From contig NZ_WTVS01000002.1 of assembly GCF_012911005.2 (NCBI RefSeq), positions 124,001 to 188,000 on the forward strand: a stretch of 64,000 nt of DNA, read 5' to 3'. A model generated the notes under the pieces. The model worked only from the letters and a program-made list of their open reading frames with translations, was not told the DNA's origin and searched no databases. Shown here piece after piece: positions 14,211 through 30,493 of this stretch; within the stretch, counting starts at the first letter, position 1, and each line of letters begins with the position of its first letter. The stretch comes from Aromatoleum toluolicum. Its GTDB lineage: Bacteria > Pseudomonadota > Gammaproteobacteria > Burkholderiales > Rhodocyclaceae. A program made the position numbers and the translations under genes.

Positions 14211-14232
14211 TCCTGCCTGACTCTTCGCAGTC

Positions 14233-14739
14233 ATGATCGTACTGGGGCGCATTGTCGCCCCTTTTGGCGTCCAGGGGTGGGTCAAGGTGCATCCCTTCGG
14301 GGATGACCCGCTCTCCTGGCGCGAAATGGCTCAGTGGTGGCTTGCCGACAAGGCCGAAGCCCCCGAAGAGGCATGGCAGCCGGTGAAACTGGCCGGTTTC
14401 CGCGCGCACGGCGCGGGTTTCATCGCCTCGTTCGAAGGCGTGACGGACCGCAACGGTGCGGAAGCGCTGCAAGGCCGCTACATCGCCGCGCCGCGCGAAG
14501 CGATGCCCGGCACCGGCGAAGACGAATACTACTGGGGCGACCTGGTCGGACTTGCGGTTGTAAACGAGTCGGGCGAATCGCTCGGCACGGTCGAGAGCCT
14601 GATGTCGACCGGCGCCCATGACGTACTGCAGATTCGCGACGGCGACGAGGAGCGACTGATCCCCTTCGTCGCCGCCTACGTACTGAATGTGGACCTGCCG
14701 GGCCGGACGATCCGGGTCGACTGGCAGAAGGATTGGTGA
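14233..14739 (+). CDS. rimM: Ribosome maturation factor RimM
   Basis: A 168-residue protein with the N-terminal RimM motif [19 protein letters not shown] and a C-terminal PRC-barrel domain ([27 protein letters not shown]). It assists 30S 3'-domain assembly and binds S19. It is 22 bp after rpsP. Confidence 0.96.
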
Positions 14740-14746
14740 AAACGGG

Positions 14747-15535: not shown

Positions 15536-15617
15536 AGCCCGTATACAAACCGCGCGCATCAGGCATGTCCTGCTCTGCCGCAAGGCCAAGTGCCATTGAA
15601 TCGACAGGAGTCGCACA

Positions 15618-15995
15618 ATGAACCTGATTCAGCAGCTCGAACAGGAAGAAATCGCCCGCCTGAACAAGACCATCCCCGAGTTCGCCCCCGGCGACACCGT
15701 GGTGGTGCAGGTGAAGGTCAAGGAAGGCACGCGCGAGCGTCTCCAGGCCTACGAAGGCGTGGTGATCGCCAAGCGCAACCGTGGCCTGAACTCCAACTTC
15801 ATCGTGCGCAAGATTTCGTCGGGCGAAGGCGTGGAGCGTACGTTCCAGACCTACTCCCCGCTGGTCGACAGCATCGAAGTCAAGCGTCGCGGTGACGTGC
15901 GCCGTGCCAAGCTCTACTACCTGCGCGACCGCTCCGGCAAGTCCGCACGGATCAAGGAAAAGCTCAATTACAAGGGCACCGCGAAGCAAGCCTGA
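15618..15995 (+). CDS. rplS: 50S ribosomal protein L19
   Basis: A 125-residue protein with the L19 signature [18 protein letters not shown] and [26 protein letters not shown]. Last gene of the operon; an 82-bp gap separates it from trmD and a strong terminator follows. Confidence 0.97.
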
Positions 15996-16023
15996 TCGCG
16001 CGATTCAGCCAGCAGCACATGAA

Positions 16024-16048
16024 ACGGGCCCCGCGGGGCCCGTTTTTT
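16024..16048 (+). terminator. Terminator of the rpsP-rplS operon
   Basis: A perfect 9-bp stem (ACGGGCCCC with GGGGCCCGT) on a two-base turn with a T tract to 16048, 28 bp after rplS. Confidence 0.93.
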
Positions 16049-16106
16049 CATCCTCGACGAGCGCGAGCGCAATGCCGCACGCGCAGGCACCCCGCGCCGA
16101 ACGCAA

Positions 16107-16304
16107 CTACTCCTTCTTCGCGTCCTCGCCCTCGTCGTCATCGTCGTCCGGAATCACCGCATCGACTCCGGCACCGACGACCTTGGCGCCCACCTTGACC
16201 GTTGTCGCGACCACGGTCACCGCCGCATCGGCAACCGCAACCACCGCACACCCGCCCAGCATTGCCGCGCACACAGCAGCGAGCAGCAGATTCCTCACGC
16301 CCAT
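16107..16304 (-). CDS. Small secreted lipoprotein
   Basis: A 65-residue protein. I start it at MGVRNLLLAAVCAAMLGGC, giving a short signal peptide with a lipobox (LGGC). The mature part is a small Ala/Val-rich segment followed by an acidic tail (DDDDDEGED). Such short lipoproteins are frequent in this group; the function is unknown. It is the last core gene before the tRNA remnant. Confidence 0.75.
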   Translation of the reverse strand: MGVRNLLLAAVCAAMLGGCAVVAVADAAVTVVATTVKVGAKVVGAGVDAVIPDDDDDEGEDAKKE

Positions 16305-16487
16305 TTTCCCCCGATCCCTTTCCGAAAACGGCCACGCAGGCGCGGCCGCGCGACACTTCCGCCTCAATGGCGTCGCGCCGCGATTATTCCCCGCGCCGGG
16401 CGCCCTATGTGTATCGACTAGTATCGCCCCGGCGGAGCACGGCGACACGACCCGATCCGCACCTGCCCAAATTCGCGCCTAACGCCG

Positions 16488-16522
16488 CGCAAAAGAAAAA
16501 AGCCGCCAAAAATCGGCGGCTT
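16488..16522 (-). terminator. Terminator of the original tRNA-Ser transcript
   Basis: Stem AAGCCGCC (16500-16507) with GGCGGCTT (16515-16522); to its left the + strand is A-rich, so on the minus strand the hairpin ends in a T tract. It lies just beyond the displaced tRNA 3' end, as expected for the native tRNA-Ser terminator cut off by island 1. Confidence 0.7.
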
Positions 16523-16534
16523 CTTCTTCATGGC

Positions 16535-16548
16535 TGGCGGAGAGTGAG
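16535..16548. repeat. Left attachment repeat (tRNA-Ser 3' remnant)
   Basis: TGGCGGAGAGTGAG is identical to the 3' end (including CCA) of the tRNA-Ser at 28252-28345. The remaining tRNA body is absent here, so this is a displaced end and not a gene. Confidence 0.85.
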
Positions 16549-16682
16549 TCTGCTGAAAGGGATTATCACCGCCCCTCATCCGACTTCACACGCCCCGCCG
16601 TTCTCCATTAACCATGCGTATCTACGCCGAGCGCATGGACGCATAGCATATCATCGCCTATCATTAGGTCGCACGCCTTTCG

Positions 16683-17924
16683 ATGGGTCGCTTGATGGGT
16701 AAGAAGGCTAACGAGCTCTCGCCGCTGTCGGTGTCACGTCTTGTTCAACCGGGCCTCCACTTCGTCGGTGGCGTCGCTGGACTGGCCCTGCAGGTATCCG
16801 TCAGCGGGGCCAGAAGCTGGATCTTGCGCGTGTCGGTCGCAGGAAAACGACGCGACATGGGATTGGGGGGCTACCCCGACGTCACCTTGGCGATGGCACG
16901 TGATCGCGCTCGACAGGCACGTGATCAAGTGCGAAATGGCACCGACCCCATCGAGGACGCGCGGGCCCGACGCAGTGCTTTACTCGCTGAGCGCGCAGCG
17001 GCGCTTACCTTTGACGAATGTGCGGCGGCCTATATCGAGGCGCACGAATCAGGGTGGCGCTCGCCGAAGCATGCCGCACAGTGGCGCACGACGCTCAAGT
17101 CGTATGCGAGCCCGATCATCGGCGCGCTGCTCGTGCGCGACGTTCAGCTTTCCCACGTAATGCGCATCTTGGAGCCAATCTGGAGCACGACGACCGAAAC
17201 CGCGACTCGCGTGCGAGGCCGGATCGAGGCTGTTCTCGATTGGGCAACGGTGCGCGGCTACCGCAGCGGCGAGAATCCGGCCCGTTGGCGAGGGCACCTC
17301 GACAAACTGCTGCCCAAACCCTCCAAGGTTGCACCCGTCAAGAACCACGCCGCGCTCGAGTGGCAGGACATGCCGCAGTTCATGGCAGAGCTTCGGAAGT
17401 TGACCGGTGCCGGCGCACGAGCACTCGAGTTCGCGATTCTCACGGCAGCTCGCTCAGGGGAAGCGCGCGGTGCCCGATGGAGTGAAATCGACATCGCCAG
17501 GGGAGTCTGGACTATTCCGGCTACGCGCATGAAGGCGGGAAAGGAACATCGCGTACCCCTGTCGCCGGCAGTGGTCGATCTACTCCGGGCGGTGCCGAAG
17601 TTTGCCGAATCGGAATACGTTTTTGTCGGAGCGAAGGGCTGCGCGCTCTCAGATATGACGCTCACGGCCGTCCTACGCCGGATGAAGCGGAAAGTGACAG
17701 TCCATGGCTTCCGGTCGAGCTTTCGCGACTGGGCCGCCGAAAGTACCGCGTACCCCAACGAAGTCGCCGAGATGGCACTCGCACACGCCATTGGCAACGA
17801 AACGGAAGCAGCCTATCGACGCGGCGACCTTTTCGCGAAACGGGCACGCATGATGTGCGATTGGGCCCAATACTGTGAGCGCCAGGCAACTGCCGTAGCC
17901 GAGGTTGTCGCGCTCCATGGCTGA
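16683..17924 (+). CDS. Tyrosine integrase, P4 type (DUF4102 N-terminus)
   Basis: A 413-residue site-specific recombinase. The N-terminal arm-binding DUF4102 domain (about 15-105) has LALQVSVSGARSWILRVSVAG and MGLGGYPDVTLAMARDRA. The catalytic domain shows Arg in ILTAARSGEARG, Lys in TRMKAGKEHRVPLS, the HxxR box TVHGFRSSFRDWA, the second His in LAHAIGN and a Tyr nucleophile in AAYRRGDL. The start could be ATG 16683 or ATG 16695. It lies 135 bp inside the left attachment repeat and should catalyse integration at tRNA-Ser. Confidence 0.93.
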   Translation: MGRLMGKKANELSPLSVSRLVQPGLHFVGGVAGLALQVSVSGARSWILRVSVAGKRRDMGLGGYPDVTLAMARDRARQARDQVRNGTDPIEDARARRSALLAERAAALTFDECAAAYIEAHESGWRSPKHAAQWRTTLKSYASPIIGALLVRDVQLSHVMRILEPIWSTTTETATRVRGRIEAVLDWATVRGYRSGENPARWRGHLDKLLPKPSKVAPVKNHAALEWQDMPQFMAELRKLTGAGARALEFAILTAARSGEARGARWSEIDIARGVWTIPATRMKAGKEHRVPLSPAVVDLLRAVPKFAESEYVFVGAKGCALSDMTLTAVLRRMKRKVTVHGFRSSFRDWAAESTAYPNEVAEMALAHAIGNETEAAYRRGDLFAKRARMMCDWAQYCERQATAVAEVVALHG

Positions 17925-18666
17925 CTCGGTGATTTCCTCGGGGCAGGAGGACGCCCCGGCCCGACGCGAGCCGACCTTACCCCCCTGCTCGCTTCCACCT
18001 CGCTTCCTTCATGAACTCGAAGGCACCATCGCCAACGCGACCAACGGCGACCTCCAGCACACGATAAACCTGCTCACCGCCTTCTGCATCCTAGCTCAGG
18101 GAGACCACCCGCCGCCGGCTGCACTGGTCCGCTGGATCGGGAAGTTCCTCTACCACGCCTGCGATAGCGAATGGCTTAGACAAGCTCGTCGAAACCGCAG
18201 CATTCGGCACCAAACCGCTCGGAGCCGAAATACGATTGGTGTCGCAGAGTCGCTGCGATCCCTCGCGGGTGGCAGGAACCCCGGCATCAGCCGCTTAACC
18301 CAGATTTATTACGGCCAGGCAGGGACAACCGATTTGGCCGAGTTCATCGACACCGCTGCTCGCAATGGAACGCCGTCGGCAAACTGCCTCAAGGCCGCCT
18401 GCGCAGCAGCGAGCCGCCTCCGACATATTCTGCTCCGGGACGACCCTACCGGATTCAACCATCGCAGCAAGGTCGGCATACGCGGATGGGGCGCTTGGAA
18501 GTCCAGCGATGAGTTTCATTCGGAGATTGCCGACGAGTTGACCCGGGCGGCGGCTACGCGGGGGAGGTCTCTGGCTGCCCTATTCCGCGAGATCGGCCCA
18601 CGGTTCGGCCTGACGTCCGAGGGGGTCAAGAAAATCTGGCAGCGCGCACAACGCCAGCGCAAATAG
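17917..18666 (+). CDS. Unknown protein coupled to the integrase
   Basis: A 249-residue protein starting at an ATG that overlaps the integrase end by 8 bp. No family recognised. The C-terminal segment (RGRSLAALFREIGPRFGLTSEGVKKIWQRAQRQ) looks like a helix-turn-helix. A helical central part carries basic stretches (RQARRNRSIRHQTARSRN). Its coupling to the integrase suggests a role in element excision or control. Confidence 0.6.
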   Translation: MADSVISSGQEDAPARREPTLPPCSLPPRFLHELEGTIANATNGDLQHTINLLTAFCILAQGDHPPPAALVRWIGKFLYHACDSEWLRQARRNRSIRHQTARSRNTIGVAESLRSLAGGRNPGISRLTQIYYGQAGTTDLAEFIDTAARNGTPSANCLKAACAAASRLRHILLRDDPTGFNHRSKVGIRGWGAWKSSDEFHSEIADELTRAAATRGRSLAALFREIGPRFGLTSEGVKKIWQRAQRQRK

Positions 18667-18785
18667 GGACAGCCACTCACCAAATTTCAGTAGACCTCGG
18701 CGATACAAACGGTATCGCGCTGACTCATGCGACGTCGCCGCCGCGCAACGGCAATCAAACCTCGTCGCTGCGAGAGGTCTACAAC

Positions 18786-19076
18786 ATGAAGCCGAAGTTC
18801 AACGCCACCCTTGGCACCAAGCAAATTCTAAAGGCCGTCTCCGCGGCCCACCCCGCTCCCCCCTCAAAAGACCTGCCCCCGGCACTCGCGAAATTCGACG
18901 ACCTGCCCGAATCGGCTTACGTCCGCATGCCCGTGGTGAAGGAGCTCCTCAGCTGCTCGGAGGCGACGGTCTGGCGCATGGCCAAGGACGGACGCCTCCC
19001 CCGCCCGCATAAGTATTCGACAAATATGTCGGGCTGGAACGTCGGCGAGCTGCGTCGCGCGATTCGCAACGCATAA
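18786..19076 (+). CDS. AlpA-like excisionase/regulator
   Basis: A 96-residue protein. The C-terminal half (YVRMPVVKELLSCSEATVWRMAKDGRLPRPHKY...GWNVGELRRAI) is the winged-helix AlpA/MerR-like DNA-binding fold that regulates integrase expression in P4-like elements. The N-terminal about 45 residues are a polar extension, longer than typical AlpA. Confidence 0.8.
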   Translation: MKPKFNATLGTKQILKAVSAAHPAPPSKDLPPALAKFDDLPESAYVRMPVVKELLSCSEATVWRMAKDGRLPRPHKYSTNMSGWNVGELRRAIRNA

Positions 19077-19092
19077 GCAGGGGGAAGAGGCC

Positions 19093-19422
19093 ATGACGAC
19101 CCCCAATGCTGACCGTAACCCCGCCCACTCCTGCATGACGGAAAACACGTGTGACGCGCAAACCAACTCGGGCACGTGCCGCCAGCCCGTACATGACCGC
19201 CTTCATTCCCAACAGATCGCGTACCTGAAAGCCGTGCCATCCAAGATTCGCGCGCTCTTCGCGAAAGCCTACGCTGGCCGCGCCTCACCGCGCCAGGCGA
19301 TTCAAACGAAGTGCCTGCAATGCAGTCATGCAGACCGTGCCGAGATTTCGCATTGCCCGATCCAAACGTGTCCGCTGTGGGCCTACCGCCCGTACCAGTC
19401 GAACTGCGCGGAGGGCGAATAA
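19093..19422 (+). CDS. Small cysteine-rich protein, probable zinc binder
   Basis: A 109-residue protein with cysteines grouped as KCLQCSHADRAEISHCPIQTCPLWAYRPY near the C-terminus, a zinc-ribbon-like arrangement found in small proteins of integrated elements. It shares one base (TAATG) with the next gene. The function is unknown. Confidence 0.65.
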   Translation: MTTPNADRNPAHSCMTENTCDAQTNSGTCRQPVHDRLHSQQIAYLKAVPSKIRALFAKAYAGRASPRQAIQTKCLQCSHADRAEISHCPIQTCPLWAYRPYQSNCAEGE

Positions 19423-19577
19423 TGGATCCCGAATCCTGGCTCGACCTCTTGGCAATGCTCGCGGTCCGCTTTGCCCATACCGGCATCGTGGACGATCTCC
19501 GCACCCTGGATCGCGAAGAACTCTGGGGCCTGTACCTGCACCTGTCACGTGCGGAGGTCGGTGAGAACGATGACTAA
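19422..19577 (+). CDS. Small acidic protein in the island 1 operon
   Basis: A 51-residue protein (MDPESWLDLLAMLAVRF... ends RAEVGENDD). The start overlaps the previous stop as TAATG and the end overlaps the next start by 8 bp, which is the main evidence that it is real. No family recognised. Confidence 0.55.
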   Translation: MDPESWLDLLAMLAVRFAHTGIVDDLRTLDREELWGLYLHLSRAEVGENDD

Positions 19578-20073
19578 ACGCCCTGACCGCCCGGATCCGT
19601 GGAAGGGGGTTGCCCACTACCGCGTGCGACTGGAGGGCGCTGACAGCCCTGCGTTTCGGGTGCTGAGTTTTTCGGCGAAGGCATTGTATGGCGACCTTCG
19701 GGCAAAGATGCGGAGCAACAACAACGGCAACATCAACGCGACCCTTTCCGAAATGCGCCATCGCGGCTGGACCTCCTCCGCAACGTTGTCAAAGGCGTTA
19801 CAAGAACTCGAGGCGATGGGGTTCATTGCCAAAACCCGCCAAGGCGGCATTGCCGCAAACGCGCGCTATTGCAGCCTTTACCGCTTCACCGACACCGAGG
19901 TTTGGGAGTGGCCGAAACTGGGCATCGGCCCCATCGAGGCCACGAATGAGTACAAGGCATTCGGCACTGTAAGAGAGGCAGAAGTGGCCATGAAGAACCA
20001 CCGCGACCGCGTCACCTTTCTCCAGAAAGCGCGACGGGCCGAGAAGATGGGGGCTCGCGACGAAAAAAAATAA
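19570..20073 (+). CDS. Winged-helix protein, possible replication or control function
   Basis: A 167-residue protein starting MTKRPDRPDPWKGVAHYRVRL. The middle (SFSAKALYGDLRAKMRSNNNGNINATLSEMRHRGWTSSATLSKALQELEAMGFIAKTRQGG) is a winged-helix of the kind found in small replication or transcription proteins of phage satellites and plasmids. The C-terminus is basic. It is last in the tight 19,093-20,073 run. Confidence 0.65.
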   Translation: MTKRPDRPDPWKGVAHYRVRLEGADSPAFRVLSFSAKALYGDLRAKMRSNNNGNINATLSEMRHRGWTSSATLSKALQELEAMGFIAKTRQGGIAANARYCSLYRFTDTEVWEWPKLGIGPIEATNEYKAFGTVREAEVAMKNHRDRVTFLQKARRAEKMGARDEKK

Positions 20074-20098
20074 AGCTTCAAAAATCAAAGCGCGGAGC

Positions 20099-20259
20099 TT
20101 CAGATTCCGAAGTGTGGCAGCAGGAAACCGATGCAAATTCTGAACATGGGAATCCTCGCCCGCTTCGGAATCTGAACACAGCAATTACCGCCGAATCCCT
20201 CGCCACTCCTGGCGCTCGGGCGATCCGGTGTGCGACGCCCCCGTCTTCAGAATCCGAAG
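20099..20259. repeat. Three 14-bp palindrome-related motifs
   Basis: TTCAGATTCCGAAG at 20099-20112, its inverted form CTTCGGAATCTGAA at 20163-20176, and TTCAGAATCCGAAG at 20246-20259. Each contains an imperfect dyad, and the arrangement (direct, inverted, direct) at 64 and 83 bp spacing suits operators or a replication/recombination site. No gene with good support overlaps them. Confidence 0.5.
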
Positions 20260-20375
20260 TCCATTACTACCATTACCACCCCCTATCGCAATAACACGAC
20301 AACGGATTGGAGACTTCGCCCGCCGACTGCCGCCGCCCAACAGTCCATCCGCTAGCTGAGGACCGCCACAACATC

Positions 20376-20669
20376 ATGAAAGACAAGTACGACACCAAGA
20401 CCCTCGACCTCCTCGACCGCGTCCCCCAATCTGAAGCGCCGAAATCGATCAACGCACATCCGAATACCCCTTCCGGGCGCAAGCGCCCTAAACCGACGCA
20501 GTTCCCTGACGACGTGGACATATCCCGCGCCACCAAGGCCGCCCTCCTGTCCATCGTCGCCAAGCTCAACAGTGGCAGTGAGGAGACAAAGGCGCAGGCC
20601 GTTCTCAAACTGGGTGAGCACCTCGGCTTAAATGTCACGATCACGCCACCGCCGTCACCCCCACCCTAG
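20376..20669 (+). CDS. Small unknown protein
   Basis: A 97-residue protein starting MKDKYDTKTLDLLDRV, rich in Lys and Pro, ending TPPPSPPP. A short amphipathic helix (LLSIVAKLNSGSEETKAQAVLKLGEHLG) is its only visible feature. No family recognised. Confidence 0.45.
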   Translation: MKDKYDTKTLDLLDRVPQSEAPKSINAHPNTPSGRKRPKPTQFPDDVDISRATKAALLSIVAKLNSGSEETKAQAVLKLGEHLGLNVTITPPPSPPP

Positions 20670-21082
20670 ACAGGAGCAGCGCATACACTCGCCGTATTCA
20701 CCTGGCCGCGCCAACCAGGGCGCAATCACTTTCCCAAACAGGTAACGCCAGCCCCACACGTAGGCGCCGACAACGAGACCGCTGGGTTCGCGCGCGCGCG
20801 CGTGGGGCTGCAAACCGAAGCGCGAAACTTGTCCTTGCAAGTCCCTGACAGAGCGATTTCGTGGCGGGCTCTGCGCCCAATGGGACAGTCATCTCAGGCG
20901 CTCACGAATCCACACGGTGCTGCCCGACAGAACAACGTAGTCCCCTCTGCGCACGCGATTTGCCCGACCGACAGAACCGTCAGCGCCCGGCTCAAATCAA
21001 CGCGGCGTGATGCACTCCCTTTCGGCCCACACAAACGGGATATACCTTCGCGATATCCCGCGAAACTATTTTTGGGGCTTCT
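20670..21082. promoter_or_regulatory. Gap before cas3 with inverted repeat
   Basis: No gene with support in these 413 bp. Close to the cas3 GTG, CGGGATAT (21036-21043) pairs with ATATCCCG (21053-21060), and an overlapping alternative TTCGCG/CGCGAA pairing (21047-21064) is possible. It could be an operator or a structure in the cas leader. A run of alternating CG lies near 20790-20802. Confidence 0.35.
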
Positions 21083-24000
21083 GTGCTCGACAGGCTCTTC
21101 GACGAGATTTTCGGCGCCCCCCCGTCCATTTGGCAGCGCGCCGCCTACGATGCCTTCGTAGCTGGCACCCTGCCGCGTTACATCAAGGTTCCGACGGCCG
21201 GCGGAAAGACTGCAATCCTGGCCATCTTCCTCGCGGCGCTCGCGACCCAGGCCGGGACTCAACGGATTACGCTTCCGAGGCGACTGGCATTGGTGGTCAA
21301 CCGCCGCAGCCTCGTGGATCAGTCCAGCGCGCTAGCCGCAAAACTTGCAGATATCGTTCGCGGCGGAACCCTGCCTGCGCTAAGCGACGCGCTCGCAACG
21401 CTCTCCCCCCGCGGCATCCCGTTGTCGGTCTCGACCCTGCGTGGCGCCCTTGCCGACAATGGCGACTGGGCGATAGACCCAGCCACTCCTGCTCTGATCC
21501 TCGGCACCCCTGACATGATCGGGTCGCGGCTGCTATTTCGTGGCTATGGCGTCGGCCGCTCGCGGGCCGCCACGCATGCGGGCTTGCTCGGCATCGACAC
21601 TCTGGTCGTCCATGATGAAGCACACCTCGCCCCCGTGTTTTCGTCCGTACTGAGGGAAATCGAGGTGCTAGCCCGACGCAGCGCCGACGCCGTCGGGCGC
21701 CCGCCCCTGCACGTTGTGGAGATGACCGCCACCCCCGACCCGCATTCAGACGTTGGCCAGATCCTCGAATGCCGAGTGAGCGATGATCCGGCGCTCGCCC
21801 GCCGTATGCGGGCCGGCAAGGCCCTCACTATCATCGACGTATCCACCAACGCGACCAAGGGAAAACCTGCCGCCCGCGTGCTCGACATGCTTGCCGAGCA
21901 GGCGCTCGCCCACAAGAACGCGTGCAAAGCGGTCGCGCTTTTCGTCCACCGGCCGGAAGCCGCCAACCATTTGACTGGGCGACTGCTACAAGGAGGAGTA
22001 CCGCTCGACCGCATTGTCACGCTCACTGGCACCCAACGCGCCAGCGAGCGAGAGCACCTCATCCACAGTCCAGCCTTTATGCGGTTCTCGCCCGAGCGCC
22101 CCGACGAAGGAGCACCGACGGCTTACTTCATCTGCACTTCGGCCGGGGAGATCGGCCTCGACATCGACGCCGACATCGGGCTCCTGGACTTGGTCACACT
22201 GGATCGCTTCATCCAGCGCGCCGGACGCATCAACCGCCGCGGGTGCAGCAGTGGCGAGTTGACCCTGGTCCATGCCTGCGGCGAGGAACTCGGCGACGCG
22301 CTTACGGAACGAAGCCGGACTGCGCTCAGGCTCCTTGATGGTCTGCCCCATGTCCCGGCGGGACGAGATGCCAGCCCGATCGCGCTCACGCAGCTCACAG
22401 AGCACCCCCGCTATCGAGAGGCTGTACCCGCTGTCCCGCCTCGTCGTAGCCTCGAACCGTCGATCCTGACCCAATGGTCGATGACGGCCCTTCGGCTCGA
22501 CGCCCTGCGCGTCCCGCCGCCGGATATCTTCCTGCACGGACTCGACGACGAGGACCACGATGTCGACCTGGTGTGGCGAACTCTGCCGGCCGACACCGCC
22601 CAGCTCACGGACTGGCTCGAGGCCTGGCCCGTGCTGGCACATGAACGCGCAAAACTGCCCCTACACAAGGCGCGGGACCTGATCGAAGCCGTCTTGAAGC
22701 GAGCCGGTCATGACGACCACCGGCATCGCGCGGTTCTTGTTCTCGACAGCCAGGGACGAGTCGTTGAACACGAGCCTGTTACCACTGACCGTTCATTGCG
22801 TGGCCTCATGCGTCTGGTTGTACCAGGTCGAACCGTCATTATTCGCGATGAACTCGGTGGGCTGTCCCCTGCGGGGCTCCCCGACATCGACAGCATTGCA
22901 CCAGTGGTCGACGTCTCCGCGGAGGGTCGCGGCGAAATGCTGACCCTCATCTGTTCGGTCGGACTCGCAGATGGCGCCATGCAGTGGTCCCACGTCGGTG
23001 AGCACGCGGAATCCTTACCGGCCCTAGTCGCGATGATCCGGCCCGACCACGAAATTGCATTCGCCGAAGAGCTGGTGTTACCGGTATCCGACCTGATGAC
23101 CCGCGATGACTCGACCGTGCATCGCCGCGCGCGTGTCTGGCTCCACACTCGACAAGTGTCGGGCCCTGACGCAGGTGACCTTGCATCCCTGAACCGCTGC
23201 GATAGGACTCTCATCGATCACCTCGAATTGGCGCACAAGGCCGCGCATCGCCTGTTGCAGCATATCGACCTGCCCCCGATGCTCGCCACCGCGGTAGCGA
23301 CCGCTGCCGCCCATCACGACGTCGGCAAGCAGGAGCCGCGGTGGCAGGCTGCGCTCGGCAATCCGACGCCTGCGGTCCCGCTTGCGAAGAGCCGTCGCCC
23401 CGTCTTTGACGTGCGTTTGAACGACGGCTACCGCCACGAGCTCGGCTCCGTGGTGATGTTGGGCGAACAGGTGGGCATGCTGGAACGACACCTGATCGCT
23501 GCGCATCATGGCTGGGCCCGACCGGGCTTTACAGAAAAGGCGCGGACAAAACCCGGATGCAGTTCTATCGCCGACCGAGTGGCGAAGTCGTTCGCCAAGC
23601 TTAACGAGCACTTCGGCCCCTGGGGGCTGGCCTATCTGGAAGCCATGGTAAAGAGTGCGGATGTGCTCGCGGAACTGGAAGCCACACGTCTCGCGGAACA
23701 CCCCCTCCCGTCACCGCGCACCATTGTCACTAAACACGACGAGGAAGCCCCCGGCAGCGCGATCGAGATTCCCGCCGACGCGCGCAATTTCGGCGAATAT
23801 CTCGCTTGCCTAGGGTTACTCGACCTGCTCGCCCGCTTCCGCTCGGGCCTCTCAGCATGCTGGACGGCACGGGGTTTCAGTATCGTCGGAGCCGATGACG
23901 CGGCAGTGCTCGCCGCTGTAGATGCGCTGCTCACCGTCGAGGCGAGTGTCGATGAGGCCGCACTACGCGACGATTTGCACGGTGAGAAATTCCCCCCCTT

Positions 24001-24559
24001 ACGGCTACGCCTGAGCAACTCTGGTCACCAGTTTTACGTCAATGGCTGGCTGGCGATGGACTACGGCGGCAATTCTCGCTGGAAACTGAGCGCGGGCCAG
24101 ACCGATGCACTGGCAATCCTGCGCGGCCTCGTATCCGCTGCCCACACCCTTCGTTCCGACCTCGTCACAGGCGCAGACCTCTTCCGGCTCGGCACAACGA
24201 TGAAGGAGCGCTTTCGCTTCGACGCGGCCACGAGTTGGTCGGCCTTGGACGCCGGTTTCACGCTGAACGAGGACGACCGCTTTAGTACTGCGCGGCCGTT
24301 TGTCGAGCTTCTCTCGATCCTGGGCCTACAGCATGCCTTCGTTCCTCCCGGCGACCAGCCCCCTTGCCACTATGTCGTGTGGCACACGCCACTGCCAGCC
24401 GCGCTGTGCCTACCTGCTGCGAAAGGGCTGATGTCCGTGTCGGGCGAGCGCTACCGCCCCCGGCTCGTGACATCGGGGAAAATGAAAGACGTTTTCACCT
24501 CCGAACTCACCCTCTCGAATGAGGAAAGCACATGGCTACCGAACCATCTGATCGTCTGA
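21083..24559 (+). CDS. cas3: Type I-G Cas3 helicase-HD nuclease fused to Csb3/Cas8-like domain
   Basis: A 1158-residue protein starting at GTG. Residues 1-480 are an SF2 helicase: Walker A VPTAGGKT with Lys42, DEAH at 178-181, motif VI DRFIQRAGRINRRG with QRAGR at 378-382. The HD nuclease follows (HHDVGKQEPRW, His745-Asp746; AAHHGWARPG, His808-809), the helicase-then-HD order known for subtype I-G/I-U. From about 894 the sequence starts afresh with IPADARNFGEYLACLGLLDLLARF, resembling the N-terminus of separate Csb3 (Cas8u2) proteins, and continues 265 residues. I infer a Cas3-Cas8 fusion. csb1 overlaps by 28 bp. It should supply target recognition, unwinding and DNA degradation. Confidence 0.85.
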   Translation: MLDRLFDEIFGAPPSIWQRAAYDAFVAGTLPRYIKVPTAGGKTAILAIFLAALATQAGTQRITLPRRLALVVNRRSLVDQSSALAAKLADIVRGGTLPALSDALATLSPRGIPLSVSTLRGALADNGDWAIDPATPALILGTPDMIGSRLLFRGYGVGRSRAATHAGLLGIDTLVVHDEAHLAPVFSSVLREIEVLARRSADAVGRPPLHVVEMTATPDPHSDVGQILECRVSDDPALARRMRAGKALTIIDVSTNATKGKPAARVLDMLAEQALAHKNACKAVALFVHRPEAANHLTGRLLQGGVPLDRIVTLTGTQRASEREHLIHSPAFMRFSPERPDEGAPTAYFICTSAGEIGLDIDADIGLLDLVTLDRFIQRAGRINRRGCSSGELTLVHACGEELGDALTERSRTALRLLDGLPHVPAGRDASPIALTQLTEHPRYREAVPAVPPRRSLEPSILTQWSMTALRLDALRVPPPDIFLHGLDDEDHDVDLVWRTLPADTAQLTDWLEAWPVLAHERAKLPLHKARDLIEAVLKRAGHDDHRHRAVLVLDSQGRVVEHEPVTTDRSLRGLMRLVVPGRTVIIRDELGGLSPAGLPDIDSIAPVVDVSAEGRGEMLTLICSVGLADGAMQWSHVGEHAESLPALVAMIRPDHEIAFAEELVLPVSDLMTRDDSTVHRRARVWLHTRQVSGPDAGDLASLNRCDRTLIDHLELAHKAAHRLLQHIDLPPMLATAVATAAAHHDVGKQEPRWQAALGNPTPAVPLAKSRRPVFDVRLNDGYRHELGSVVMLGEQVGMLERHLIAAHHGWARPGFTEKARTKPGCSSIADRVAKSFAKLNEHFGPWGLAYLEAMVKSADVLAELEATRLAEHPLPSPRTIVTKHDEEAPGSAIEIPADARNFGEYLACLGLLDLLARFRSGLSACWTARGFSIVGADDAAVLAAVDALLTVEASVDEAALRDDLHGEKFPPLRLRLSNSGHQFYVNGWLAMDYGGNSRWKLSAGQTDALAILRGLVSAAHTLRSDLVTGADLFRLGTTMKERFRFDAATSWSALDAGFTLNEDDRFSTARPFVELLSILGLQHAFVPPGDQPPCHYVVWHTPLPAALCLPAAKGLMSVSGERYRPRLVTSGKMKDVFTSELTLSNEESTWLPNHLIV

Positions 24560-25629
24560 ATGCCCTCCTGCTCGATCGCAACGCCGTGGCAATCGTATGC
24601 CGGCAACCGCTCGAATCCGTGGAGGGCCCGGGTGGCGTGGTGTTTCCGCCCACCTACGCGGGGAAGGGCGACAACGCCCCCCCCGAATACAACATCAGCG
24701 ATTTTGGCGATGGTCGAAACGTTTGCACCATGGACTCAGTCCAGTCCCAGGCAAACCGCATCGAAGCAGCCTTCCTCACGGCCCCATATCGCGCCCTCGT
24801 GCGCGAAGTCACGGTCCGGGCCGAACTCGCCGACGGGGAACAAAGGATCATCGACGTTCTCGAAGCGCCACACCGCCTGGCCGACGCGACAATCCGATTC
24901 TCCGATCTGCGCCAGGACGCCGAAAGGGCGTTTCGCAACTTTCGCGATGCCCCTCGCGCCGTCGCCGAACTGTCGCCGATGAGCCTGTTGATGGGCGCAT
25001 TTGACTCGCGCGGCACATATTGCAAGATTCCGCGCGCCCTGACAGCGCGAATTGAGGCCCACAACGTCCGCCGTCTCGTTCGCAGGGCGCTTTACTCGGC
25101 GGCACTCACCGGCAAGGACCTCGGGCACGAGGACAGCAAGCTCTCCCAAATTGGCCTCGACAATGCTCTGGACGGCCCCATTCCTGGCGGAATCATCGCC
25201 GACGGTGGCATCTGGCGGGAGGCGGTCTTGAACCTTATCGCCTTGCGCCAGAATTGCGGCCAACGGGTGACGAATCGCTACGACGAGAAGCCGTCGAAGA
25301 CTCCGCCTGACGACTTGTCTGCCTACATCTTCGGGCTCGGCCTGGTGAGCCTGACGCTCCAACCCGAGACCTTCTTGCGCCAGGGATGCCTCCTGGTGGC
25401 GGCGGCGCCCGTAGCGGCCACGATAAGGTACGCGGATGGCGCAAAGACCAGTTTTTCCCTAAGCACAGTGGACGCCCTCGAATTCGCGAAGACGGCAGCC
25501 CTGCGTTTTGGTGTTGCCTCGCTGCCGCCGCGGCAGGGTCATTTCCAGCGCGAACTGATCGACGAGGCGAACCGTCAGGCACAAGAGAAAAACGAGAAGA
25601 AAAAAGTGAAGGGGAACAGGGGTGCCTAA
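24532..25629 (+). CDS. csb1: Type I-G Cas7-family protein Csb1 (GSU0053 family)
   Basis: A 365-residue protein. The N-terminal FPPTYAGKGDNAPPEYNISDFGDGRNVCTMDSVQSQANRIEAAF is the Csb1 signature. Csb1 forms the Cas7 backbone of the type I-G surveillance complex along the crRNA. RBS GAGGAAA lies 5 bp before the ATG inside the cas3 3' end; the stop overlaps csb2. The C-terminus is lysine-rich. Confidence 0.92.
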   Translation: MATEPSDRLNALLLDRNAVAIVCRQPLESVEGPGGVVFPPTYAGKGDNAPPEYNISDFGDGRNVCTMDSVQSQANRIEAAFLTAPYRALVREVTVRAELADGEQRIIDVLEAPHRLADATIRFSDLRQDAERAFRNFRDAPRAVAELSPMSLLMGAFDSRGTYCKIPRALTARIEAHNVRRLVRRALYSAALTGKDLGHEDSKLSQIGLDNALDGPIPGGIIADGGIWREAVLNLIALRQNCGQRVTNRYDEKPSKTPPDDLSAYIFGLGLVSLTLQPETFLRQGCLLVAAAPVAATIRYADGAKTSFSLSTVDALEFAKTAALRFGVASLPPRQGHFQRELIDEANRQAQEKNEKKKVKGNRGA

Positions 25630-27019
25630 CCACTGGCTCGTGATAGAGGCGCAGTTCCTCACGGGCATCTACCGTGGTGCCGAGTGGCCCCCGGCTCCCT
25701 TTCGCCTGCTCCAGGCAATCGTAGCGGGCAACCGCTCCGTCACGGCCCCGGGGCTGGGATGGCTGGAGCGGCAGCCCGCGCCCGACATTATTGCGCCATC
25801 CAGTCCGCCCGAACTGCGCTACACGATTTACGTCCCGAACAACTCGGACAGGCGTAAGGCTAAGGCGGCGACGACGAGCCGGGAGGTAGTAGAGCGACGC
25901 GTTGCAGGACCGGTGCGCTACGTTTTCGCGCTCACGGACGAGGAGTCGTGCCGCGATGCGTTCCACGTGATCGATACTGCCTCGCATCTCCATACCCTCG
26001 GGTCCGGCCAGGACCAGGTCAGTGTTACCGGGCATATCACGTCCGTGCGACCGACGTGCGCGGCGAGCGAAACACATTTCACTGCCTCACTGGGTCCTGC
26101 CGCACGCGCACTACGGAGCAACGTCGACGTCATCTTGCGCGTGCCCATCCCCGGCTCCCTGAGTTCGCTTGAAACCCGTTTTCAGGCTAGCCAGACACGC
26201 CTCGACAAGTCTAAGGGCTGGATTTCCCCCGTGCTGGCCCCGGGCCTTCACGACATCGCTGCCTACACACCGGCTGGGCAGGCAGCGCGTGTGGCGATGG
26301 TGCCCCTTCGCCTGCAGAAGCCCGGCAATCCTCGCACCTTCCGCCCATTCGATCCGCGGAACACGGTGGTCGTCGCAGGCATGTTACGGGGCGCGGTCAT
26401 GCAGCGTACTGCGGGTCTGCCGTTGGCCGACTTTGCTGCGGGCTATGCCCCGGAGAGCGATCTCGAACGGCGGCTCTCATGGGTGCCCCTCCCCTCGCTC
26501 GGTCACGATCACGCCGATGGCTTGCTGCGCCGCGCCCTGCTCGTTGCCCCCATCTCGTGCCTGCCCGAGGTAGCCAATGTCCTCCACTGCCTCGGTAACG
26601 AGCCCCTGCGCCTGGTCGAGGAAAACTCCGGCGAGCACGTTGCCGACGCTGCCTTGGCGGATCCCGAAGACGGAGTTTTCGCGGCGTATCGCAGACCGAG
26701 CCGTACATGGACCAGCGTGACGCCCATGATCCTGCCCGGGGACCATGCAGGTAATTCGCGGTTGGTACGAAACCTCGTGCTTAAGGCGCTGAGCAATTCG
26801 GCGATCGACGCCGGTCTGCTCGAGGACATGGAGGTGAGCCGACTCCCCTTCCTCCCCCAAGCACACCACGTCGCCGATTACAGGCTCAAGGCTTGGCAAG
26901 CGGGGCGGCTCATGCCCTACCATGTGCGCCTCCACTTCCGCGAGCCAATGCGTGGGCCTGTTTTTCTCGGTCGCGGCCGACATTTCGGGCTTGGCGTGTG
27001 CTGCGCGAACCCGAAGTGA
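25622..27019 (+). CDS. csb2: Type I-G Csb2 (Cas5-Cas6 fusion, GSU0054 family)
   Basis: A 465-residue protein from GTG 25622, overlapping csb1 by 8 bp. The N-terminus HWLVIEAQFLTGIYRGAEWPPAPFRLLQAIVAG is the Cas5-like Csb2 start. The C-terminus (VRLHFREPMRGPVFLGRGRHFGLGVC) has the glycine-rich loop of Cas6-type RAMPs. In type I-G this protein caps the crRNA 5' handle and processes the pre-crRNA. The array begins 147 bp after its stop. Confidence 0.92.
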   Translation: MPNHWLVIEAQFLTGIYRGAEWPPAPFRLLQAIVAGNRSVTAPGLGWLERQPAPDIIAPSSPPELRYTIYVPNNSDRRKAKAATTSREVVERRVAGPVRYVFALTDEESCRDAFHVIDTASHLHTLGSGQDQVSVTGHITSVRPTCAASETHFTASLGPAARALRSNVDVILRVPIPGSLSSLETRFQASQTRLDKSKGWISPVLAPGLHDIAAYTPAGQAARVAMVPLRLQKPGNPRTFRPFDPRNTVVVAGMLRGAVMQRTAGLPLADFAAGYAPESDLERRLSWVPLPSLGHDHADGLLRRALLVAPISCLPEVANVLHCLGNEPLRLVEENSGEHVADAALADPEDGVFAAYRRPSRTWTSVTPMILPGDHAGNSRLVRNLVLKALSNSAIDAGLLEDMEVSRLPFLPQAHHVADYRLKAWQAGRLMPYHVRLHFREPMRGPVFLGRGRHFGLGVCCANPK

Positions 27020-27166
27020 ACGTGATAGCCCGGGAGGTTCGCGCTGATCCTACGCCTTGAATTGGCAATACTTCTTCGGCCGCAGTCAGGGCTAAAGGCG
27101 TGTATTAGGTCGGTTCGCGCCATCCGAGCAAGAGGATATTCAAGATCAACACGTTGCTGGTATGGT
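27020..27166 (+). promoter_or_regulatory. CRISPR leader region
   Basis: These 147 bp lie between csb2 and the first repeat. The intact repeats are at this end and the decayed ones at the far end, so this is the leader side. I could not identify a clear promoter; TTGAAT near 27056 is a weak -35 candidate. Confidence 0.5.
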
Positions 27167-27927
27167 GTCGCACTCGCCTACAGCCAGGCGACTACGTTGA
27201 AGCATCTTGAGCAGCGTGACGTCGCCCCGTGCCCTGAGGTCGCACTCGCCTACAGCCAGGCGACTACGTTGAAGCAAGATCGCCCGCTCGACCGGAACGA
27301 CGCTCACCGAGTCGCACTCGCCTACATCCAGGCGACTACGTTGAAGCACCTCGGCGTCGAACTGCGCCACGCGCGCCTGATAGGTCGCACTCGCCTACAG
27401 CCAGGCGACTACGTTGAAGCAACGAGTACGCCGCCATGTGGCGCGAACCGCTGGCGTCGCACTCACCTGCGGCCAGGCGACTACATTGAAGCGCGCCCGC
27501 GGTCAGCCCCGTGCGCAGAGCCGTCGTGTCGCACTCGCCTGCAGCCAGGCGACTACGTTGAAGCCATTCCTGGCCCTTTTTCCTGCCCCCCGGCAGCAGA
27601 GTCGCACTCGCCTGTAAGCAGGCGACTACGTTGAAGCGGGGATGCACACTACTACTCCGGCGAGGCAAACACGTCGCACTCGCCTCTACGCAGGCGACCA
27701 CGTTGAAGCCAGAAGTACCGCAAGGGCGTCGGCGAGATCACCGAGTCGTATTCGCCTGTACGCGGCGACTACGTTGAAGGCGCTCCTTCATCGGATCCAC
27801 GATGGCCTTGACGAGCATCGCACTCGCCTCTAACCGGGCGACTACGTTGAAGTGTCGAATCATTCGGCGAATGCTCCGCGAACGGTCCCCGCCACATTCG
27901 CCAATAACGAGGCGACTACGTCGACAG
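27167..27927 (+). CRISPR. Type I-G CRISPR array, 10 repeats plus one decayed
   Basis: 37-bp repeats begin GTCGCACTCGCC and end ACGTTGAAGC, with a TCGCCT/AGGCGA stem in the middle. Repeats start at 27167, 27239, 27311, 27384, 27456, 27528, 27601, 27673, 27745 and 27817, with a strongly degenerate one at 27891. Spacers are 35-37 bp. The first two are identical. The third and fourth differ by at most one base, the fifth carries several changes, and the sixth to tenth vary in the loop. The ninth lacks one base and the tenth starts with A and ends with T. Each spacer is unique. Some read as open coding (spacer 3 on the minus strand, spacers 8 and 9), consistent with phage or plasmid genes. Confidence 0.95.
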
Positions 27928-28213
27928 TATTCGGCGAATGCGGCCTTCCGCGCCGCCCGTTCCCGATCGGCGCCCCGACTCGGGGGCGGGCCCGTCAGAC
28001 CGGATGGAGAATGCCTTGGAAGCTGCCGTATGTGTTCGGCAAGAAGACTTCCGGCGGATTACTCTGGCGAGCAAGGACGTATGCTGGCCATCGCTTCGAC
28101 CACCTTAATCTGCCCCTGTCGCGAACGATCCGCTGAATTCAGGCGATATTGAATTGTCCCGGACAGCGACGGGTCCATGCCGGCAATTTGATGGGCCGGA
28201 TGATGGGTACAAC
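27928..28213. other. Gap between array and tRNA
   Basis: No supported gene. The perfect 11-bp palindrome ATTCGGCGAAT, present in the last spacer (about 27862), recurs about 68 bp later just after the decayed repeat (about 27930). A short open frame near 28010-28135 (WKLPYVFGKKTSGGLLWRAR) may be a gene remnant. GATGGGCCGGATGATGGGTA at 28190-28209 mirrors the GATGGGT pair at the integrase start. Confidence 0.4.
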
Positions 28214-28241
28214 AAAAAAGCGCCCCGAAAGGCGCTTTTTT
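28214..28241 (-). terminator. Bidirectional terminator next to tRNA-Ser
   Basis: AAAAAAGCGCC (28214-28224) pairs perfectly with GGCGCTTTTTT (28231-28241). It ends the minus-strand tRNA transcript and would also stop rightward transcription from the CRISPR array. It came with island 1, replacing the native terminator now at 16488-16522. Confidence 0.85.
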
Positions 28242-28251
28242 GCTGATGCTG

Positions 28252-28265
28252 TGGCGGAGAGTGAG
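28252..28265. repeat. Right attachment repeat (tRNA-Ser 3' end)
   Basis: The second copy of TGGCGGAGAGTGAG, inside the intact tRNA gene. It shows that island 1 restored the tRNA on integration. Confidence 0.85.
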
Positions 28266-28345
28266 GGATTCGAACCCTCGATACGAGTTTTAGCCCGTAT
28301 GCTCCCTTAGCAGGGGAGTGCCTTCGACCTCTCGGCCAACTCTCC
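28252..28345 (-). tRNA. tRNA-Ser (anticodon GCT)
   Basis: On the minus strand the 94 bp (CCA encoded) fold as a class II tRNA: acceptor GGAGAGT with ACTCTCC, D arm, anticodon stem CTCCC/GGGAG with loop CTGCTAA (GCT, decoding AGC/AGT), a long variable arm around CATACGGG...CTCGTAT, and T arm GAGGGTTCGAATCCCTC. Its 3' end is the attachment site of island 1. Confidence 0.97.
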
Positions 28346-28447
28346 AACTCTTATCTTTCAGTGAGTTATCGATGACTTTGGTGCGCCGTATTGACCAAAA
28401 CCCACCAAAAACCCACCATCTACTTAAAACTCACCAGAAGAACCGCC

Positions 28448-29551
28448 ATGGCCCGAAACACCAGCACCAACGGTATCCGCGAGATTGTACTCGACGATGG
28501 CACCAAGCGCTTCGAGGCGCGCGTACACCGCAGCGGCGAACCCGCGAAGTCGAAGCGCTTCAAGACCCGGACGGAAGCACTCAAATGGAAACGGCAACTC
28601 GATTCCGCCATCGACGTGGGCCGACCAGCCCGGGACCGCAAAACGGTCCTCATCCGGGACATCATCGATGACTATCTCGCCTACAAGAACGCCTCCCTCA
28701 AGCCGCTACCCTCGAACAAGGTCACGGATTACCAGCGTGTTCGCGACGACCTTGCCGAGTGGTCCATCAGCAAATTGACAAACATTGATGTGGAGAACTA
28801 CGTCCGCCTCCTGCTGGGCGAACCCATTAAGCGTGATGCGAAGAAGGAGGATGCTAAGCGCCCCAAGCGCACGTACAAGCCCGCCACCGTGCGCAAGTTT
28901 TACTACGCGCTAAAGAAAGCGGTTGAATGGCACTCAAAGACCTACAAATACCATGTCGACGAGCATCTCTTCTCATTCGAAAAGGGCACCATCCCCGACG
29001 GTTGGTCCGGCAAACGCGAGCGACGACTGAAGGCGGACGAAGAAAGGCGTCTTTACGCCGCAGGACTTGACCGTGAACACACATTCACCGAGGCCGACTG
29101 GCGGGCCATCATTGGCTTTGCACTCGAGACAGCCATGCGCGAACAGGAAATCGTCGGCGTTCAATGGAAGTGCCTTGCCAACGACGACCGCAAGCTGAAT
29201 ATCCCTGGAGAGCTGACCAAAACGGGAAGACCACGCGTAGTGCTCTTGAGCCTACGGGCACGTGAAATCGTCGCCGAGCAACGAGCAAACTGCCCGCCCG
29301 GCGAGGCCAGGATTTTCCATCAGTTCCCGACGCCGGATTCGGTCTGCGTTTCCTTTGCTCGACTCTGCAAACGTGCCAAGGTAAGCAACCTTACTTTTCA
29401 TGACCTTCGCCACGAGGCCACCAGCCGGCTCTGTGAATCCGGCAAACTCAACATGATGCAAATCATGGAGATGACGGGTCACTCGAGCATGACGACATTC
29501 CAGGGCTACCTGCATCTCCTGAAGCACGAAACCTCCGTCGTACTCGACTAA
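28448..29551 (+). CDS. Tyrosine integrase of island 2
   Basis: A 367-residue recombinase beginning MARNTSTNGIREIVLDDGTKRFEARVH; an upstream TTG in frame is less likely. The N-terminal SAM-like domain precedes a catalytic domain with Arg in FALETAMREQEIVGVQW, Lys in ELTKTGRPRVVLLS, the box TFHDLRHEATSRL, His in MTGHSSMTTF and Tyr in FQGYLHL. It is unlike the P4-type integrase of island 1. It starts about 100 bp from the 5' end of tRNA-Ser, and AAAACCCACC is repeated at 28397-28406 and 28410-28419 just before it, possibly arm sites. No second attachment repeat was found. Confidence 0.9.
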   Translation: MARNTSTNGIREIVLDDGTKRFEARVHRSGEPAKSKRFKTRTEALKWKRQLDSAIDVGRPARDRKTVLIRDIIDDYLAYKNASLKPLPSNKVTDYQRVRDDLAEWSISKLTNIDVENYVRLLLGEPIKRDAKKEDAKRPKRTYKPATVRKFYYALKKAVEWHSKTYKYHVDEHLFSFEKGTIPDGWSGKRERRLKADEERRLYAAGLDREHTFTEADWRAIIGFALETAMREQEIVGVQWKCLANDDRKLNIPGELTKTGRPRVVLLSLRAREIVAEQRANCPPGEARIFHQFPTPDSVCVSFARLCKRAKVSNLTFHDLRHEATSRLCESGKLNMMQIMEMTGHSSMTTFQGYLHLLKHETSVVLD

Positions 29552-29629
29552 GGCAGCTTCACGGCTGAAGTTGCCCAGCCGGCCACCACAAGTATGAAAC
29601 GCCCAGCCTTGCCGGCCGGGCGTCGAGTT

Positions 29630-30493
29630 CTATTGCTTCATGACCACACCATACCGCTCCACGTGCTCCCTCACCTTCTGCTGACGCTTATGCAACGCGA
29701 TGCGCTGCGGATACGGGAGCCCCGCCGCCTCACAGCGTGCCTGCACAGCCCTCCACGCCGCATACGTCGATGAGTGCCTCGCGACCTCTTCATCAATAAT
29801 CGCCTCGGTTTCCTCGGGCCAGTACCGACGAGTCAGCGGCCCAAGCTCCAGGGGCACCCACGAGGCAAAGAACAGCCGTCCGTCGATGACCTGCCAACGC
29901 CCCCCTGCCCTGCGCGCTGCGTTCCGTACGTCAGCATTGCTTACCAGCGCTCGATTGATGGCAACAACGAAATCCTCATCCTGCGCGTCGTCGTCCACCT
30001 TTTCGAGGACGCGGTGGGTCAGCGAATACAGGACCTCACGCCAACGCAGCGCTTCCTCGCCGACGCGAACGCCGATGTGGCTGTCGGCACCTAGGTCATC
30101 AAGGCATCCCGAGAGGAGCCAGGACTTCGGGACCTGCAGGAATTCAGCCAGCCTCTCCAGTCGCTCACCGCGGGGAGGGTGGCGATTCTCCCCCCAACGT
30201 CTTGCCAGCTCCCGACTGACCTCCATGTACCGCCCCACCTGACTGTCCCTAAGTTCGCGGTAGTCCCGAGCGATGCGATAGCGTTCGCCGAATGTCGTGC
30301 GCGCGGACTCCGCTTGCTCGGCCTTTCGGTTCACTGCCTGCTCAACCCGTTGGACCGTTTCCGCATCAGGCCGCGGCCGGCGACCGCACCCCACCCTATC
30401 GGATGCAACAGCAAATTCCCTCCGGGAAGTCCGCAGAAATTTCGTCATCGCCGCGACGTACTGCGTCGTCGAGCGGCTCTCGAACATACTCAT
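29630..30493 (-). CDS. Helix-turn-helix (XRE/CI-like) regulator
   Basis: A 287-residue protein; I use the ATG at 30493 (MSMFESRSTTQYVAAMTKFL), with 30487 as an alternative. A central HTH (about 95-150: TFGERYRIARDYRELRDSQVGRYMEVSRELARRWGENRHPPRGERLERLAEFLQVP) resembles CI-type repressors. The C-terminal part is helical and ends with a basic segment. No protease domain is visible. It sits next to the island 2 integrase and may control it. Confidence 0.65.
   Translation of the reverse strand: MSMFESRSTTQYVAAMTKFLRTSRREFAVASDRVGCGRRPRPDAETVQRVEQAVNRKAEQAESARTTFGERYRIARDYRELRDSQVGRYMEVSRELARRWGENRHPPRGERLERLAEFLQVPKSWLLSGCLDDLGADSHIGVRVGEEALRWREVLYSLTHRVLEKVDDDAQDEDFVVAINRALVSNADVRNAARRAGGRWQVIDGRLFFASWVPLELGPLTRRYWPEETEAIIDEEVARHSSTYAAWRAVQARCEAAGLPYPQRIALHKRQQKVREHVERYGVVMKQ

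Follow-up and report, generated by a model that had tools for sequence, protein, structure and literature searches.

A type I-G CRISPR-Cas locus of Aromatoleum toluolicum predicted to encode Cas3 and a Cas8g2-like domain as one polypeptide

What becomes of an interference complex when its nuclease-helicase, Cas3, shares a reading frame with a subunit of Cascade (CRISPR-associated complex for antiviral defense)? The question is raised by a gene (21083..24559, plus strand) in a 64,000-nucleotide stretch of the Aromatoleum toluolicum genome, which we call the window. The gene belongs to a type I-G CRISPR (clustered regularly interspaced short palindromic repeats) locus. An earlier, sequence-only reading proposed that a Cas3 helicase, an HD nuclease, and a Csb3/Cas8-like domain run without a stop through one 1158-residue protein, and that this removes the step in which Cas3 is recruited. 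The first proposal was borne out by the frame and by profiles. The gene has a GTG start and is a single stop-free frame of 1158 amino acids. These data confirm, at the level of the predicted protein, that one polypeptide combines the helicase and HD nuclease of Cas3g with a Csb3/Cas8g2-like domain. The lack of a Cas1 match, the island, and the single branch of fused forms, all described below, go beyond what the earlier reading noted.

The Cas3g part spans residues 1 to 866 (21083..23680, plus strand), with a superfamily 2 (SF2) helicase followed by the HD nuclease. Searched alone, it matched the Cas3g profile TIGR02621 at 643 bits (cut-off, 400 bits; E 1.3e-192), residues 3 to 863 corresponding to profile positions 3 to 852 of 854. 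The motifs GGKT (residues 40 to 43, including the Walker A lysine K42), DEAH (178 to 181), QRAGR (378 to 382), and H745-D746 all lie where the earlier reading had placed them. In type I-E Cas3, the HD domain precedes the helicase. In the fusion protein, the HD residues (745 and 746) are C-terminal to the helicase QRAGR motif, which is the order of Cas3g (GSU0051). A 29-residue linker (867 to 895; 23681..23767, plus strand) leads to the Cas8g2-like domain (896 to 1158; 23768..24556, plus strand).

The C-terminal part alone matched the PADLOC Cas8g model PDLC01375 (E 1.9e-20, positions 2 to 237 of 250). It also matched TIGR04106, the 282-position profile of Cas8g2 (GSU0052), with an E value of 7.6e-17 and a score below the cut-off of that family. 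An hhalign comparison of six fused C termini with five stand-alone Cas8g2 proteins gave 99.6% (E 3.6e-24) over 238 columns, and the negative control, the fused C termini against Csb1, gave 0.3%. Therefore, by profile homology, residues 896 to 1150 are a diverged homologue of Cas8g2 (GSU0052), the small subunit of type I-G, over its whole domain; the earlier reading had started its Csb3-like segment near residue 894. That reading had also considered that the segment could be an ordinary C-terminal part of I-G Cas3. It is not, because the Cas3g profile stops at residue 863, and because Cas8g2 occupies a separate frame of 247 to 386 amino acids after the Cas3 frame in 11 split loci, 3 of which helped to build the profile used. 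Pfam had no match to the domain at E 1, none of the I-E large-subunit profiles matched the fusion C terminus, and a PDB sequence search with the fusion protein (P0001) returned nothing at E 0.1. A PDB search with a Cas8g alignment returned three matches, which were taken as chance (best E 0.65).

In the window's own genome (G000), TIGR04106 had no second match besides the fusion gene. The other Cas8g, Csx17 (TIGR04113, 718 positions), was found in none of the five fused genomes searched, G000 included. This probe works, because it matched in two of seven genomes without the fusion. Apart from the fused domain, the profiles found no large-subunit candidate in G000.

The catalytic residues are conserved. 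K42, the DEAH residues, Q378, R379, R382, H745, D746, H785, H808, H809, and D860 were invariant in all six fused proteins compared, and residues 353 and 744 varied. Across six fused pairs, amino acid identity was 42 to 63% in the Cas3 part and 29 to 63% in the Cas8 part. Third codon positions changed most in both parts in these pairs, as would be expected under purifying selection. In the linker, identity was 17 to 34%, 48 to 69% of first and second codon positions were changed, and third positions led in only four of the six pairs, all on an alignment that is unsure. We also looked for signs of a free Cas8g2 made from an internal start. Near the domain boundary, from residue -60 to +5 relative to the conserved GEYLA, an in-frame start preceded by GGAG, which resembles a ribosome-binding site, was present in just one of six fused genes (that of G019), and none was shared.

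A genome survey, which the earlier reading had suggested, found the intact fusion in seven genomes, that of the window included (G000, G019, G129, G1303, G1260, G1389, and G1403). G1357 has a broken copy, and Cas8g2 is separate in the 11 split loci. Among 121 genomes of relatives, 10 had any match to the fusion protein and 2 (G000 and G019) had it full length. In the order sample, TIGR04106 matched 5 of 399 genomes: G000 and G129 with the fusion (frames of 1182 and 1194 amino acids) and G202, G210, and G424 with separate frames. TIGR02621 matched above its cut-off in 8 of 398 genomes of the phylum sample, where fused and split forms were called by frame length (for G780, G465, and G564 also by inspection of the frames) and G000 alone was fused. 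The fusion candidate of G780, with an open frame of 1210, was rejected, as Cas3 ends there and a separate 385-residue frame follows. Profile A2, built from three fused C termini, matched 6 of 369 genomes of the class sample (G000 fused, five with separate frames of 306 to 414 amino acids) and 6 of 297 in the family sample (G000, G019, G1303, G1260, and G1389 fused, and the G1357 copy with a stop). In the family of G129, profile A6 matched 2 of 74 genomes, both fused (G129 and G1403). These counts are not independent, because G000 is in most of the samples. Fused relatives were found in none of 43 candidate stretches of viral contigs; among plasmids, 23 records matched and none covered 80% of the query. 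Judged by these comparisons, the fusion is a natural variant common to a few related bacteria.

Two partial frames were seen along the way. The G1357 copy (L096 10939-11652) is a remnant: it consists of the Cas8g2-like part alone, interrupted by an in-frame stop, and no match to Cas3, Csb1, or Csb2 turned up in the 19.9 kb examined. In G012, of the same genus, a 354-residue frame (L005) resembles Cas3 residues 8 to 367 at 37% identity and is perhaps a remnant of a different Cas3.

In a Cas3 tree of 19 rows, the six fused rows fell on one side of a branch (100/100). The tree holds 19 of the 25 loci with an I-G Cas3. G1403, found later, is absent, and G210, G599, G738, G969, and G1027 (partial Cas3 frame) and Rh2 (regarded as a near-duplicate of Rh1) were excluded. 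The fused branch is long, and the split rows G697 and Rh1 were flagged as long too. We suggest a single origin of the fusion, by the joining of cas3 and cas8g genes that stood close together.

The rest of the locus, in the order fusion gene, csb1, csb2, and CRISPR array, has type I-G features. The csb1 gene (Cas7g; 24532..25629, plus strand) starts inside the 3' end of the fusion gene and matched TIGR02570 at 112.6 bits (cut-off, 38). The csb2 gene (Cas5-Cas6; 25622..27019, plus strand) matched TIGR02165 at 174 bits (cut-off, 45). Alongside these stands a Cas3g of the GSU0051 type with HD after the helicase; lacking is Cas8g as a separate gene, since it is joined to Cas3 here. The interference genes number three and occupy 5.9 kb, nuclease included. 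At the csb2 place of two split I-G loci there are frames of 734 and 742 amino acids (L024 4597-6801 and L025 4313-6541), versus 465 here.

The CRISPR array (27167..27927, plus strand) has 11 repeats of about 37 nucleotides, the last ones degenerate, and ten spacers of 35 to 37 nucleotides. Spacer 8 (27710..27744, plus strand) matches a phage lipoprotein gene. Nine phage records matched it, with Xanthomonas, Stenotrophomonas, Erwinia, and Vibrio as hosts (E 1e-4 to 0.2). In the three records read, PB119 and CKB-S1 each agreed with the spacer at 32 of 35 bases and Piffle at 31 of 35 (counted by eye). The records assign PB119 and Piffle to Schitoviridae (Pokkenvirus) and CKB-S1 only to Caudoviricetes. 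TTC adjoins the match in three of three phages read of the nine, all for this one spacer. The published protospacer-adjacent motif (PAM) of type I-G (formerly I-U) is TTN, described for Thioalkalivibrio sulfidiphilus (PMC9638904), and TAT is said to be the PAM of another I-G system (PMC12915315). Another two phage records, whose matches fell mostly in a repeat, were not counted. Plasmid targets were rejected as chance (8 records, best E 0.2), and exact pieces of 24 to 33 bases from spacers 1, 2, 4, 7, and 8 were found in viral contigs for none of the five. The repeat stems are mostly kept and the loops vary (ACAGCC, ACATCC, GCGGCC, GCAGCC, GTAAGC, CTACGC, and CTAACC); the L022 array is more uniform. 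A regular-expression search for the window repeat found none in L022 and L023, where the arrays have other repeats.

Is the locus able to acquire spacers by itself? Cas1 (PF01867) had no match in the draft genome G000 or in G019; cas2 and cas4 were not searched for. Judged by PF01867, the window locus lacks the cas4-cas1 fusion that, with cas2, adjoins the effector genes of type I-G. G129 has one PF01867 match, on another contig and adjoining an apparently different repeat type (by reading, not by profile), and G1303, G1260, and G1389 have Cas1 on other contigs only. The surroundings of the G1389 locus cannot be judged, because it lies at a contig end. Cas1 was nearby in none of the five judgeable intact fused loci (G1403 is outside this count), and it lies about 25 kb from the broken copy of G1357 on the same contig. 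Among 17 other genomes, nine (G465, G1170, G969, G057, G738, G202, G424, G564, and G780) have Cas1 no more than about 8 kb from an I-G gene on one contig, two (G599 and G052) have it far off or on other contigs, four (G210, G1083, G643, and G697) have no match genome-wide, and two (G942 and G1027) are not judgeable. Because the fused loci form one branch, the missing nearby Cas1 counts as at most one event and not as a statistical association. I-G loci without an adaptation module are on record in myxobacteria (PMC11237760).

The window copy appears to be an interference-only module, with its own array, on an integrative island at tRNA-Ser. The island (16535-28251, 11.7 kb) is marked by an integrase, an attachment (att) repeat, a tRNA-Ser target, and empty sites in relatives. 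The left att core is a 14-bp direct repeat (16535..16548), and the right core (28252..28265) is the 3' end of a tRNA-Ser (GCT) gene (28252..28345, minus strand). This is the sole direct repeat of at least 14 bp spaced more than 8 kb apart within window positions 14001-30000. Between the cores lie a tyrosine integrase (16683..17924, plus strand; PF00589, PF22022, and PF13356; phrog_1), an AlpA-like excisionase/regulator (18786..19076, plus strand; PF05930; phrog_66), and the I-G genes.

A tRNA-Ser gene lies at most 1.5 kb after rplS in 7 of 16 other genomes of the genus. For five of these genomes, the alignment of the window island's left flank extends through the att core at its very end, in one piece in L060 and L062 and in two pieces in L064, L066, and L068; in L067 and L072 the flank aligned just partly. 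On the right side the tRNA alone (95 to 102 bases) aligned in all seven, because a second integrase adjoins the tRNA in the window. L062 shows the empty site: the left flank runs to 2407, the tRNA starts at 2394, and the overlap is the 14-bp core. In G003, of the same genus, the left flank reaches the core, and what follows is a different element whose integrase is related. In G019, two copies of the 3' part of tRNA-Thr, 48 bp each and 12.9 kb apart, enclose the fused system (L022 6014-18920), with another integrase adjacent. Island borders are therefore established from sequence for two fused loci, those of the window and G019. Long direct repeats (at least 18 bp, more than 5 kb apart) around the other fused loci were found in L022 only and in none of L095, L097, L023, and L098. 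The G003 element (L082 1680-8548) has an integrase of 64% identity and lies before the same tRNA-Ser, an integration hotspot. In the window, a second tyrosine integrase (28391-29551) lies directly right of the tRNA-Ser, so another element probably adjoins the island. A ParA/MinD-like ATPase gene (33580-34287, minus strand) is perhaps part of that neighbor.

How would the fused protein work? We propose that the Cas3 nuclease-helicase and Cas8g2 of a type I-G Cascade are made as one chain, with some 30 residues of loose linker in between. The C-terminal domain would sit in a complex with Csb1 (the backbone) and Csb2 (CRISPR RNA processing), and because it sits there, every assembled complex would have its own Cas3. 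Once a TTN-flanked target has been recognized and an R-loop has formed, the HD and helicase of the same chain would act on the displaced strand, nicking and unwinding it. The fusion would fix an association, one Cas3 per complex, that is already stable in ordinary type I-G. In the T. sulfidiphilus I-G system, Cas3 co-elutes with Cascade without target DNA, only if Cas8g is present, and is required for efficient, stable target binding (PMC9638904). A review describes I-G Cas3 as an integral, autoinhibited subunit; the same review groups I-G with systems that have separate helicase and HD proteins, which misfits the Cas3g here (PMC11127173). Csb3 is said to contribute to Cascade assembly (PMC12915315). 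The proposal that the fusion removes a recruitment step is thus only partly supported and goes too far, because I-G Cas3 is already a stable subunit in the complex studied; it would better fit subtypes with recruitment in trans. The fusion probably makes an existing Cas3-Cas8g contact permanent rather than creating it. In short, we favor a fused Cascade subunit with a built-in Cas3, arisen once, that fixes an existing contact within an interference-only island module, and we give this explanation a probability of roughly 0.7.

Several observations weigh against it. The C-terminal domain scored 61.9 bits alone and 56.1 bits within the whole protein against TIGR04106, short of the NCBIfam cut-off of 125. 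The mean AlphaFold pLDDT (predicted local distance difference test) was only 35.7 for the whole protein, computed from an alignment of the window protein with the proteins of L015 and L016, and 34.5 for the C-terminal domain; neither model is usable. The biochemistry behind our explanation was done on a Csx17-type Cas8g, and the domain here is of the smaller GSU0052 type. Because that type has been described as a deteriorated Cas8, recognized by its helical C terminus and operon place (PMC3150331), the role of GSU0052-type Cas8g is itself partly conjectural. Just one of ten spacers has a phage match, and the spacers of the G019 and G129 arrays gave no such match at E 0.1. The degenerate last repeats suggest that the window copy may be ageing. 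Assembly into Cascade, a large-subunit role for the C-terminal domain, DNA cleavage, and the effect of the fusion are inferred.

The fusion may instead be functionally neutral. An ancestral frameshift would have joined two neighbors, and the product would work like separate Cas3 and Cas8g, with unchanged timing and regulation. In all 11 split loci, no more than 13 bases separate a candidate cas8g start from the cas3 stop, and the frames differ in 10 of them, so a small indel could join the genes. These starts are candidates rather than established true starts, and some nearness is expected by chance because ATG, GTG, and TTG are all common. A small frameshift in such a closely spaced pair would be the simplest route to the fusion. 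The stable place of Cas3 in type I-G (PMC9638904) and the poorly conserved linker also suit neutrality. However, the fusion has been kept across two families (G000 and G129, 48% identity in the Cas3 part) and down to 42% (G000 and G1389), and in yeast a type I-E Cas3-Cse1 fusion increased interference (PMC9241507). Neutrality overlaps with the explanation we favor, which leaves any benefit open; we regard it as a real possibility that we would not back.

A specific benefit would be protection from anti-CRISPR proteins that prevent Cas3 from joining Cascade. AcrIC3 fails against a type I-C system in which Cas3 was tethered to Cas8 by design, after the example of the natural I-E fusion of Streptomyces griseus (PMC7913775), and one spacer of the window array matches phages. 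However, I-G Cas3 is perhaps never recruited in trans, so there may be nothing to block, and a Cas3-Cas5 fusion was inactive in the same study (PMC7913775). We consider such protection unlikely. Even less credible is a decaying locus in which the fusion is an accident: the genome has no Cas1 match, the last repeats are degenerate, and G1357 carries a broken copy, but all six proteins compared keep the catalytic residues, third positions change most in both domains, and seven copies are intact. A sequencing or assembly error that conceals a stop or frameshift and so makes two normal genes look like one, conceivable in a draft genome of 289 contigs, is refuted by the same open fusion in six other genomes.

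We found no report of a Cas3-Cas8g fusion in the open-access literature searched; the 2020 classification paper, outside that scope, may mention one. A joined Cas3 and Cas8 is not new as a kind, because a natural type I-E fusion is already known, and I-G would be the second subtype after I-E with Cas3 joined to a Cas8-type subunit. Here, nature joins two proteins found in contact in type I-G, and the fixed one-to-one tether may serve in studying Cas3 placement. A three-gene, 5.9-kb machine is of practical interest for long-range deletion tools. We put forward only tentatively that the fused systems are a separate I-G lineage, a three-gene interference machine with Cas3 built into every Cascade, without adaptation, carried in at least two members as cargo of small islands at different tRNA genes, and insensitive to inhibitors that separate Cas3 from Cascade.

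Among known systems, that of T. sulfidiphilus shares Cas3, Cas7 (Csb1), Csb2 (Cas5-Cas6), and perhaps the TTN PAM (TTC for one spacer here), and its Cas8g attaches Cas3 to Cascade, as the fused chain would here, but its cas3 and cas8g are separate and its Cas8g is Csx17 (718 positions), whereas the domain here is of the GSU0052 type (282 positions) and fused (PMC9638904). Myxobacterial I-G systems have, like the locus here, I-G effector genes and repeats that end in TTGAAGC, and their adaptation module is sometimes absent, but they have four separate interference proteins (PMC11237760). Stand-alone Cas8g2/GSU0052/Csb3 (TIGR04106) is homologous over 238 columns; it occupies separate frames, and the fused form scores below the cut-off of the family. 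Some type I-C systems have a Cas3-Cas5 fusion, in which Cas3 is likewise joined to a Cascade subunit, although another subunit and another subtype are involved (PMC7913775). A parallel in architecture is the natural type I-E fusion of Cas3 with the Cas8 protein Cse1 in Streptomyces griseus (PMC7913775; also described as naturally occurring in PMC9241507), and an engineered fusion of E. coli Cas3 and Cse1 worked (PMC3890593). The I-E fusion and the one described here both have Cas3 first, the large subunit second, and a short linker in one chain; they differ in subtype and in the HD domain, which follows the helicase in the I-G protein.

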